A stretch of DNA of 64,000 nucleotides, taken from positions 55,289-119,288 of the forward strand of contig SVTF01000002.1 in NCBI GenBank assembly GCA_015063905.1, in the 5' to 3' direction. The translations under genes and the position numbers were made by a program. Each line of letters starts with the position of its first letter. The stretch's first letter is position 1. Positions 52,066-56,245 of the stretch are shown in pieces. The stretch is from Oscillospiraceae bacterium (lineage in GTDB: Bacteria; Bacillota; Clostridia; Oscillospirales; CAG-272). The notes beneath the pieces are model-generated. The model saw only the letters and a program-made list of their open reading frames with translations, was not told the DNA's origin and did no database searches.

Positions 52066-52854
52066 ATGAAAAGAACACAAATTAAAAAGATCCCCGAGCC
52101 TCTGCCGCGCGAGATCGAGCAATTTATTGGCTCGGCGCGCATATTTGACAGCTCCTGCTCGCCCGAAGCGAGAGTGTATTTTATTGACCGCGACGGCGGC
52201 TATTACTTAAAGCTTGCAAATAAGGGTGAGCTTTGGGCTGAGGCGAGGATGGCAAAATATTTTCACTCCAAGGGACTTGGCGCAGAGGTGCTTGACTATC
52301 AAAGCCTTGGCGGGCGCGATCTGCTTTTGACGGCGCGTGTTGCGGGCGAGGACTGTACGCATGCGCAGTATCTTGCCGACCCCAAGCGGCTTTGTGACCT
52401 GATAGCGACAAAATTGCGCGAGCTGCACGAAACGGACGCGTCCGATTGCCCTGTGAAAAACAGAATGGACGGGTATATTGCGCTTGCCGAGAAAAATTAT
52501 CTTAGCGATAGTTACGACAAGTCGCATTTTCCCGATAGCTTTGGTTATCGTTCGGGAGAGGAGGCGTACGCCGCTTTTTGCGCGGGTAAGAGTACGCTTA
52601 AAAACGAGGTCTTGTTGCACGGAGACTACTGTCTTCCCAACATAATGCTTTACGATTGGCGTTTTTCGGGCTTTATCGATGTAGGGCAGGGCGGAATAGG
52701 AGATAGACACGTCGATCTTTTCTGGGGCGCGTGGACGCTCATGTTCAATCTCGGAACGGACGCATACAGAGAAAGATTTTTCGACGCTTACGGGCGCGAT
52801 AAGATCGACCTTGAAAAATTGAAAACGGTCGCCGCCGCAGAGGTGTTCGGCTAA
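52066..52854 (+). CDS. Aminoglycoside O-phosphotransferase (APH(3')-like) family
   Basis: LLHGDYCLPNIMLYDWRFSGFIDVGQGGIGDRHVDLFWG matches the APH(3') catalytic HGD...N...GFID motif order. Confidence 0.82.
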   Translation: MKRTQIKKIPEPLPREIEQFIGSARIFDSSCSPEARVYFIDRDGGYYLKLANKGELWAEARMAKYFHSKGLGAEVLDYQSLGGRDLLLTARVAGEDCTHAQYLADPKRLCDLIATKLRELHETDASDCPVKNRMDGYIALAEKNYLSDSYDKSHFPDSFGYRSGEEAYAAFCAGKSTLKNEVLLHGDYCLPNIMLYDWRFSGFIDVGQGGIGDRHVDLFWGAWTLMFNLGTDAYRERFFDAYGRDKIDLEKLKTVAAAEVFG

Positions 52855-52895
52855 GCTTAAATGACTAAAACCTAATTTGGAATCGGAGGTAAAAT

Positions 52896-54527
52896 ATGAA
52901 AGCCTGTGTTATTCAACCTTATTATTCATTCAACAAAGAAGATATAGAGTCCTGCTTTGAGGGTTTCCTTGGGCTGATTGACGAGTGCGACGACAGCCTT
53001 GACCTCATCGTACTGCCCGAATACAGTGACGTTTTGGCGGCGGTGCACGGAAAGAAGGAATTTTACGGCGCTGTCGACAAATATAACGGTGTTATTATGC
53101 AAAAGGCGAGCGAGCTTGCGGTGCGATGTCACGCCATCGTGTGTGTCAACGCGTCGTTTTATACCGAGCTCGGCGTTCGCAATACCACGTTCGTGCTTGA
53201 CCGCGAGGGAAATATAGCAGGCAAGTATTTCAAGGCGCATCCCGCGCCCAGCGAGGTAAAGACCGATTCTCAGGGCGGAAACGAGCTTGACGTTGAGTAC
53301 AGCTACCTGCCCGAAGCTCCTTACGTCCTTGAGATCGAGGGCATGAGACTTGGCTTTATGACGTGCTACGATTTTTATTTCTACGAAAATTTCGCCAGAC
53401 TTGCAAGAGAGAACGTGGACGTTATCATCGGCTGCTCGCATCAGAGAACTGACACGCACGAGGCGCTTTCCATAATAAACAGATTTTTGTGCTACAATAC
53501 CAACGCATATCTCGTTCGCGTGGCGGTGTCATTGGGCGAGGACTCGGACATCTGCGGATGCAGCTCAATAATCGCGCCCGACGGTAAGGTGCTGGTGGAT
53601 ATGAAAAGCCGCGTAGGGCTTGGGGTATGCGACATTGATGTTAAGGATAAATACTATAAGCCCGCGGGCTTTGGCGGCGTTTTGAAGTCGCATTACGAGT
53701 ACATAGAGGAGGGAAGAAGACCGTGGCTTTACCGCAACGGCGGCGCATCGGTCGTGCCCTTTGAAGACGTAATGAAATATCCTCGACTTTGCGCGCACAG
53801 AGGCTTTTCGGCGGTCTGCCCCGAGAATAGCATGGTGGCTCTCGGCTCGGCGGTGGCGCTTGGCGCAGAGGAGATAGAATTTGATATCTGGTCGACCTCG
53901 GACGGCGTGCTTGTTTCCTGCCACGACGATACGCTTGACAGAGTCAGCGACGGTGAGGGTAAGATATACGAAAAAACATATGCGGAGCTTATGCAGCTTG
54001 ATTTCGGCGTAAAGCACGGCGAAAAGTTCAAAGGACTGCGCATTGCGACATTTGAGGAGATACTAAAAAAGTTCTCAGGGCGCGTTGTTATGAATATTCA
54101 CGTGAAGATCTGGGACTATAAATTTGACGACGATAAGCTTTGTGAGATCGTTGCATTGATCAGAAAATACGATTGCGCAAGGCACGTGTATTTTATGACC
54201 ACGAACGATGAAATGACGGCAAAGGCGAGAAAATACGCTCCCGAGATCGCTTGCTGCGTAGGATTCGACGGAAATCCTGATCCTTTGTCTATGCCGCGAC
54301 GCGCGATCGCGCTTGGAGCGCAGAAAATACAGCTTTTTAAGCCCTATTTCAATGCCGAAACGGTAAAGCTGGCACATGAAAACGGAATTTTGTGCAACGT
54401 TTTCTGGTCGGACGAGCCCGATGAGGCAAGGGAATTCTTTAAGATGGGTATCGACACGGTGCTGACCAACGATTATCTGCGCATCTATACGGCGCTCAAG
54501 GATGAATTTCCCATTAAAAAGGTGTAA
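52896..54527 (+). CDS. Nitrilase/CN-hydrolase domain fused to glycerophosphodiester phosphodiesterase domain
   Basis: N-terminal LPEY...FKAHP...MTCYDFYF; C-terminal CAHRGFSAVCPENSMVA...EFDIWSTSDGVLVSCHDDTLDR. Confidence 0.82.
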   Translation: MKACVIQPYYSFNKEDIESCFEGFLGLIDECDDSLDLIVLPEYSDVLAAVHGKKEFYGAVDKYNGVIMQKASELAVRCHAIVCVNASFYTELGVRNTTFVLDREGNIAGKYFKAHPAPSEVKTDSQGGNELDVEYSYLPEAPYVLEIEGMRLGFMTCYDFYFYENFARLARENVDVIIGCSHQRTDTHEALSIINRFLCYNTNAYLVRVAVSLGEDSDICGCSSIIAPDGKVLVDMKSRVGLGVCDIDVKDKYYKPAGFGGVLKSHYEYIEEGRRPWLYRNGGASVVPFEDVMKYPRLCAHRGFSAVCPENSMVALGSAVALGAEEIEFDIWSTSDGVLVSCHDDTLDRVSDGEGKIYEKTYAELMQLDFGVKHGEKFKGLRIATFEEILKKFSGRVVMNIHVKIWDYKFDDDKLCEIVALIRKYDCARHVYFMTTNDEMTAKARKYAPEIACCVGFDGNPDPLSMPRRAIALGAQKIQLFKPYFNAETVKLAHENGILCNVFWSDEPDEAREFFKMGIDTVLTNDYLRIYTALKDEFPIKKV

Positions 54528-54529
54528 AA

Positions 54530-55474
54530 ATGAAAAACAAGACTATCAAAACCTTTCTTTTTGATTTTGACGGCACGCTTGTGGACTCGATGCCTACCTT
54601 CGTTGCCGTAATGCTCCGAATTCTTGACGAGCACGGAATAAAATACGGAGACGACATCGTAAAAATAATAACGCCGCTTGGCTATCACGGAACGGCAGAG
54701 TATTATCGCACGCTGGGGATAGAAACGCCCACGGAGCAGCTCATTGAAACAATGAATCGCTACGCCGTTGACGAATACACGTTCAATATCGGTGCAAAGG
54801 ACACCGTCATCGACACCTTGCGCGAAATGAAGGCACAGGGATACAGTCTCAACGTATTAACGGCGAGTCCGCATTTGGCACTCGATCCTTGCCTTAAAAG
54901 ACTCGGCGTGTGGGAGCTTTTCGACAACGTGTGGTCGTGCGACGACTTTCACACCACGAAGGCGAACCCCGAGATATACAAAATGGCGTCAGAACGCATG
55001 GGATGTGACATCTCGGACGTGGTTTTCGTGGACGACAATATAAATGCCGTCAAGACTGCAAAGACAGCGGGTATGGTGTCATATGGAATATTCGACGAAT
55101 CGAGCGCAGATTACGTCGAGGAATTCAAGAATACCGCCGACGGATACGTATATAAATTTTCGGAGCTTTTGGAGTGTGGCATTGATCCAAAAAAGAAAAA
55201 ATGGCGAAAGAAGCTTGGAGAGATCTTTGGCGAGCTCGCAATAGAACTGGTTTTGGCGGTACTTTTGCCCGCGATAGGATTATTTATTCTCAATCTTTTG
55301 GGCATAGAGGCATCGTTTGCGGAATCCGATCTTGATTTTTTGGGATTTATAGGCTTTTTGGTGTTCGCGGCGGTTTGCGCGGTGACATTCGCGATAATAC
55401 ACATGATAATGAAAAATCGCAAAGGAAAATCCAAGGACTGCTTTGACAATGATGACAACGGAAAGGAAGACTGA
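54530..55474 (+). CDS. HAD family phosphatase with C-terminal transmembrane region
   Basis: LFDFDGTLVDSMPTF, VFVDDNINAVKTAK; C-terminal hydrophobic ELVLAVLLPAIGLFILNLL and FLGFIGFLVFAAVCAVTFAIIHMI. Confidence 0.8.
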   Translation: MKNKTIKTFLFDFDGTLVDSMPTFVAVMLRILDEHGIKYGDDIVKIITPLGYHGTAEYYRTLGIETPTEQLIETMNRYAVDEYTFNIGAKDTVIDTLREMKAQGYSLNVLTASPHLALDPCLKRLGVWELFDNVWSCDDFHTTKANPEIYKMASERMGCDISDVVFVDDNINAVKTAKTAGMVSYGIFDESSADYVEEFKNTADGYVYKFSELLECGIDPKKKKWRKKLGEIFGELAIELVLAVLLPAIGLFILNLLGIEASFAESDLDFLGFIGFLVFAAVCAVTFAIIHMIMKNRKGKSKDCFDNDDNGKED

Positions 55475-55477
55475 AAA

Positions 55478-56245
55478 ATGATCGAACTGACCTTTTTAGG
55501 CACCTGTGCATGCGATTTTTCAAAGAAACTGCAAAACGAATTCAAGGACTGCTTCGATAAGGATGCGCGCCGAGCGTCATCTATGATGATTGCAGACTCT
55601 TGCCTTGTCGATTGCGGTGTACACGTTATGGATTCGATTCGCATTGCAAAGAAGGATGTGGGCAAGATAACCGATATTTTCGTAACGCATCTGCATTGGG
55701 ATCATTACAACCGCGACCACGTGGCAAAAATTGCCGAGGACCACAAGGTGCGTCTTTGGGTAAGAGAGGATGCGGATATAGAGCCTATTGATAATGTTGA
55801 AATTAAAAAAATGAAGCTTTTCCAAAAATACGAGGTGAGAGAAGGCTTTTTTGTCACGGGCATGGTGGCAAATCACGACGTTGTAACGTCACCTCAGCAT
55901 TTTATTTTTGAAATAGACGGAAAAAAGATATTTTACGGCTGTGACGGCGGCTGGTTTATAAACACAACGTATAATTTTTTGCGCGACCAAAAGCTCGATT
56001 TAGCGGTGCTGGACTGCACGATGGGCGATTACGACGGTGATTTCAGGATCGGCGAGCATAACGGAATTCCTATGATAAGACTTTTGTTGCCCTCGCTCAA
56101 GACCATAAACGCCATCGGCGACGCAACCGAAATTTATCTGTCGCACCTTGCGCCCTCGCTCCATAAGCCGCACGACGAGACCGTGCGCATAGCTGGCGAG
56201 TTCGGCGCAAAAGTGGCGTACGATGGGCTTACGGTAATCATCTAA
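55478..56245 (+). CDS. MBL fold metallohydrolase
   Basis: FLGTCACDFSKK, VTHLHWDHYNRDH, ANHDVVTSPQHFIFEIDGKKIFYGCDGG. Confidence 0.85.
   Translation: MIELTFLGTCACDFSKKLQNEFKDCFDKDARRASSMMIADSCLVDCGVHVMDSIRIAKKDVGKITDIFVTHLHWDHYNRDHVAKIAEDHKVRLWVREDADIEPIDNVEIKKMKLFQKYEVREGFFVTGMVANHDVVTSPQHFIFEIDGKKIFYGCDGGWFINTTYNFLRDQKLDLAVLDCTMGDYDGDFRIGEHNGIPMIRLLLPSLKTINAIGDATEIYLSHLAPSLHKPHDETVRIAGEFGAKVAYDGLTVII

Follow-up and report, generated by a model that had tools for sequence, protein, structure and literature searches.

A nitrilase-fold domain joined to a His-type GDPD domain: a candidate bifunctional hydrolase of gut Clostridia

Amidases and carbamoylases of the nitrilase superfamily (PF00795; 3p8k, 6lcg, Nit2 and PH0642) share a common fold and a Glu-Lys-Glu-Cys set of residues. 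Nit-type enzymes carry a CYD.R stretch after the catalytic Cys, the Arg of which contacts the substrate carboxylate. A nitrilase-fold domain is joined to a phosphate-handling enzyme domain in NitFhit (nitrilase-FHIT) and in glutamine-dependent NAD+ synthetase; in NAD synthetase, glutaminase-type nitrilase domains supply ammonia. The UgpQ/ttGDPD-type cytosolic GDPDs (PF03009; 2pz0, 3qvq, 4oec and 7e0v) have a TIM-barrel fold, an HR-PEN-ExD-HD motif and a Lys after the third metal-ligand position. Published GDPD structures show three metal ligands, a further Glu joining the acidic pair of the ExD motif; ttGDPD loses its activity when any one of these three is replaced by Ala (PMC4926365).

The window, a 64,000-nucleotide stretch of an Oscillospiraceae bacterium contig, carries both kinds of domain in one open reading frame of 543 codons for amino acids, free of internal stops and lying within a run of same-strand genes, with CGGAGGTAAAAT preceding its ATG. 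The first-pass annotation had described a CN-hydrolase domain joined to a GDPD domain in one ORF, and this description held: the ORF is intact, and both domains lie above curated Pfam cut-offs (CN_hydrolase PF00795, residues 15-250, E=5e-18, 65.7 bits against a gathering threshold of 23.2; GDPD PF03009, residues 301-526, E=1.6e-33, 117.2 bits against 23.6) and are both present in 52/52 aligned homologues. Neither a signal peptide nor a transmembrane segment is apparent on reading the sequence of the window protein. The features discussed below are as follows.

52896..54527, plus strand: nitrilase-GDPD fusion ORF, 543 aa, with 152 distinct full-length homologous fusions
52884..52890, plus strand: ribosome-binding-site-like GGAGGT, a few nt 5' of the ATG (sequence read)
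52896..53645, plus strand: CN_hydrolase (nitrilase superfamily) domain, residues 1-250, with Glu42, Lys113, Glu120 and Cys157 (Pfam, invariance, fold match)
53646..53783, plus strand: hinge, residues 251-296, conserved, with RRPWLYR and YPR motifs (pairwise identity)
53796..54473, plus strand: GDPD domain, residues 301-526, with His301/Arg302, Glu310/Asn311, Glu328/Asp330 and His343 (Pfam, fold match)
54099..54101, plus strand: His402 codon (NIHVK), third metal-ligand position, Glu in ordinary GDPDs (alignment)
L104:6001-7638, L176:3935-5419 and L177:3560-4750: GDPD-degenerate fusion copies, catalytic residues lost by substitution or deletion

An AlphaFold2 model built from 52 sequences had a pLDDT of 92 and a pTM of 0.77, with confidence dipping to 63-73 at residues 271-290, in the hinge. 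When the halves were compared with known structures by Foldseek, the N-terminal half matched nitrilase and amidase structures, and the C-terminal half matched GDPDs of TIM-barrel fold (best 2pz0, TMt 0.89); no PDB chain spanning both halves was among the matches listed. On balance, we lean towards reading the protein as a soluble cytosolic bifunctional scavenging hydrolase, an amidase together with a His-type phosphodiesterase, that arose by a single early gene fusion in gut Clostridia.

Catalytic residues of the two halves

Glu42, Lys113, Glu120 and Cys157 of the nitrilase half are invariant in the 152 distinct full-length copies (152/152). Three of these residues, E42 (LPEY), K113 (FKAHP) and C157 (TCYDF), had been named in the first-pass annotation, as had H301-R302, E310-N311, E328, D330 and H343-D344 of the GDPD half; all are present and conserved, and what had been overlooked was the second nitrilase Glu, E120. 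Tyr161 is invariant as well, and the catalytic Cys is followed by the stretch CYDFYFYE; since Tyr161 occupies the position of the usual Nit-type Arg, the usual omega-amido acid substrate appears less likely for the fused nitrilase. Its C-terminal RRP..Y tail presumably resembles that of the nitrilase superfamily amidases and carbamoylases. By NCBIfam equivalog cut-offs, the domain falls into no characterised nitrilase branch (deaminated-glutathione amidase, formamidase or carbamoylase, for example), the best nitrilase model reaching 36.5 bits where 355 are required.

In the GDPD half, His301, Arg302, Glu310, Asn311, Glu328, Asp330 and His343 are intact in 149/152 fusions, and three copies (L104, L176 and L177) combine a degenerate GDPD with intact nitrilase residues; the decay in L104 came about by substitution, the reading frame being unshifted. 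This half had been taken for a canonical GDPD, a view that fails at the third metal-ligand position: the third Glu of GDPDs maps to an N-[IV]-E-[IL]-K strand, and there the NIHVK of the window protein, aligned with NIEIK of 2pz0, places His402. Solved relatives whose alignments reach that site have Glu. The His is found in 151/152 fusions, which thus depart from the acidic third ligand of the GDPD family, and among 44 other GDPDs (relatives and members of the phylum) Glu was found in 41 and His in 3 (L015, L121 and L126). The change from Glu to His at this position is new and marks a clade with both fused and stand-alone members; the metal would be bound through His402.

These counts bear on an alternative that we regard as unlikely, in which only the amidase would matter in vivo and the GDPD would be mainly structural or ligand-binding, its chemistry weakened or altered by His402. 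Such a view is favoured by the nitrilase residues never being lost, by the loss of the GDPD in the three copies above, and by the near-universal His in place of Glu; against it, His301, His343 and Glu328/Asp330 are retained in 149/152 fusions, far beyond the needs of a scaffold, and His-type GDPDs also occur as stand-alone proteins, so the His is not a sign of decay following fusion. Because the catalytic residues of both domains are strongly conserved, dual hydrolase activity is the natural reading, and we infer that both domains are catalytically active.

Phylogeny and hinge of the fusion

In FastTree trees, the supports of which are approximate, the His-type GDPDs formed a single clade (support 0.998). 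L121 and L126, which branch at its base, come from another part of the phylum, and because they are stand-alone genes the third-position His is probably older than the fusion. The genes adjoining L121 and L126 (L156 and L157) are undecaprenyl-pyrophosphate-synthase-like and SIS-domain-like, with no adjoining nitrilase, and the surrounding gene set is much alike in the two genomes. Above these basal members are three fusion groups with a few stand-alone GDPDs interspersed (L015, L174, L227, L173 and L172), among them L172, which has Glu at the third ligand position. The trees could be read most simply as one early fusion, after which the nitrilase part was lost several times and Glu returned once; branch support inside the clade is modest, and repeated fusion is a possible alternative history.

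The nitrilase domains split into the same three main groups as the GDPDs, and distances between nitrilase domains correlate with those between GDPD domains (r=0.76). Mean pairwise identity in the hinge (residues 250-297) is 0.60, as high as that of the domains. Since the domain distances correlate and the hinge is conserved to the same degree as the domains it connects, selection seems to act on the two-domain arrangement itself. We consider it improbable that two unrelated housekeeping hydrolases were joined without metabolic meaning and retained for their separate usefulness or for a stabilising effect of joining on the protein. Variable gene context and independent losses on both sides speak for such a joining; against it, the hinge is strongly conserved and nitrilases of this subfamily hardly ever occur unfused, L016 being the sole stand-alone relative among about 150 copies. 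The stand-alone nitrilase of L016/L159 adjoins an SGNH-type hydrolase, as read from sequence, and not a GDPD. Retention of the fusion suggests that both activities of the proposed scavenging hydrolase serve one pathway; that both domains act on the same molecule is a weaker proposition, because either domain can be lost.

Gene neighbourhood, substrate and distribution

No neighbour of the fusion is conserved: the genes differ at nearly every locus, and no Pfam family was found in more than 4/124 adjacent genes. Inference of a pathway from the neighbours was rejected, as no conserved gene identifies one. Loosely recurrent neighbours, by raw counts, form a mixed set of hydrolases (C26 peptidase, SASA esterase, GH2, rhamnosidase, S15 peptidase, NIF3 and a ceramidase-like protein); at many loci the neighbours are hydrolases (peptidases, glycosidases, esterases and phosphatases), which is a loose hint of scavenging.

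Within the window, the gene for an APH(3')-like phosphotransferase (52066-52854, plus strand) ends 41 nt upstream of the fusion ORF. Its product reaches 152 bits with the APH(3') model, short of the cut-off of 205, and so is probably a general small-molecule kinase; homologues lie near the fusion at 7 loci, the window included (cluster c10). Downstream, a HAD-type phosphatase gene starts at 54530, 2 nt past the fusion stop codon, and is followed by the gene for a metallo-beta-lactamase-fold protein (55478-56245, plus strand) with a weak PhnP-like match (2.4e-8) and homologues near the fusion at 6 loci, the window included. A neutral-ceramidase-like protein (L037:12018-13346 and six other loci; cluster c9), matched at 8.9e-8 and just under the Pfam cut-off, is encoded near the fusion at 7 loci and is the sole hint of an N-acyl substrate context.

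The substrate first proposed was an amide-bearing phosphodiester such as an N-acyl-phosphoethanolamine-type metabolite; in this scheme the domains would act sequentially, the GDPD freeing N-acylethanolamine and the nitrilase cutting its amide. The domain pair is chemically consistent with this scheme, and we counted in its favour that mammalian GDPDs act on related lysolipids (PMC4926365). It is nevertheless a long shot: no lipid-linked neighbour is conserved, the ceramidase-like gene being distant and restricted to those few loci, the domains are separately losable, and the protein has no apparent membrane segment. To our knowledge, moreover, the known NAE hydrolases (FAAH and NAAA) are not nitrilases, which we counted against it. 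What survives of the original proposal is the dual amide and phosphodiester hydrolase, natural from the conserved sites, but not the N-acyl-phosphoethanolamine class, as residues, neighbours and phylogeny give no pointer to lipids or NAEs. Obligate sequential cleavage of one substrate is not supported either, given the three fusions with dead GDPDs (L104, L176 and L177) and the related GDPDs that lack a nitrilase (L015, L174, L227, L173 and L172); because of both, the two steps appear not to be obligatorily coupled.

A scan of genome contigs yielded 501 related stretches. The MAGs holding the best 79 loci, almost all of which are full-length fusions, bear names such as Clostridia, Oscillospiraceae and Clostridiales and come for the most part from the guts of roe deer, sheep, goat, cattle, buffalo and horse; among 98 relatives, whole-protein matches recurred at 50-71% identity. 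In the window's order, 46/394 genomes matched at E<=1e-60, one (G524) through a GDPD-only gene, and in the class sample 21/245 genomes matched, most of them belonging to other families of that class; they include a divergent group, and in one (G981) the match is again GDPD-only. The fusion recurs both in the order of the window and in other orders of its class, whereas no other full-length fusion was found among 300 genomes sampled across the phylum, nor the fused nitrilase subfamily outside the window genome at E<=1e-25 (399 phylum genomes). Phage, plasmid and viral-contig collections held no full-length match, and a mobile or viral origin was rejected. In one genome, two fusion genes lie in tandem (L022:6525-9805).

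That an assembly or frameshift artefact had joined two genes, a caution attached to the first-pass annotation, is refuted by the 152 distinct uninterrupted fusions in independent assemblies, next to which the single copies broken elsewhere by a frameshift or stop (L014, L060, L175 and L237) are few, as expected of ordinary genes.

Proposed function and relation to known systems

In the bifunctional scavenging hydrolase that we favour, the N-terminal nitrilase-fold domain would hydrolyse an amide-type C-N bond via the thiol of Cys157, with Glu42, Lys113 and Glu120, and the C-terminal TIM-barrel GDPD would cleave a phosphodiester by means of His301 and His343, with Glu328, Asp330 and, atypically, His402 holding a metal. 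The loss of activity in ttGDPD with Ala at a metal-ligand position weighs against this reading. The substrate of the GDPD would most likely be a small glycerophosphodiester, yielding glycerol-3-phosphate. Both activities probably belong to one scavenging pathway, acting on a phosphodiester-linked compound that contains an amide, or on members of such a class, without their coupling being obligatory.

A bolder version, to which we give little credence, is that the His-type GDPD relies on another metal (Zn, Fe or Mn) or catalyses another reaction than ordinary GDPDs, for instance one that stops at or uses the cyclic phosphate intermediate, while the nitrilase works on the same metabolite or supplies a reactant, even ammonia; the outcome would be a novel degradation or conversion of amide-bearing phosphodiesters in the herbivore gut. 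We know of no ammonia-using step for a GDPD.

With both sites intact in more than 150 uncultured gut Clostridia, the fusion is good evidence of linked amide and phosphodiester hydrolysis, a route of which we found no description. The metal and substrate of the His-type GDPD subfamily, stand-alone and fused, are directly testable, and hundreds of genes whose names at present go no further than GDPD or CN hydrolase would gain a function. The pairing of nitrilase and GDPD is likewise undescribed in the open literature searched, although automated databases may list the architecture. CN_hydrolase-GDPD is a new domain architecture made from two families already known; new, too, are its restriction to one class in these samples, its long conservation and the clade of His-type GDPDs.

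Compared with the UgpQ/ttGDPD-type enzymes, whose barrel, motif and Lys it shares, the window protein has His402 instead of Glu and places its GDPD behind a nitrilase domain. It has the fold and the Glu-Lys-Glu-Cys residues of the nitrilase superfamily amidases and carbamoylases, but carries CYDFYFYE in place of CYD.R, scores far under every NCBIfam equivalog cut-off and is fused to a GDPD. Like NitFhit and glutamine-dependent NAD+ synthetase, it couples a nitrilase fold to a phosphate-handling enzyme domain; here, however, the partner is a GDPD phosphodiesterase rather than a HIT or NAD synthetase domain.
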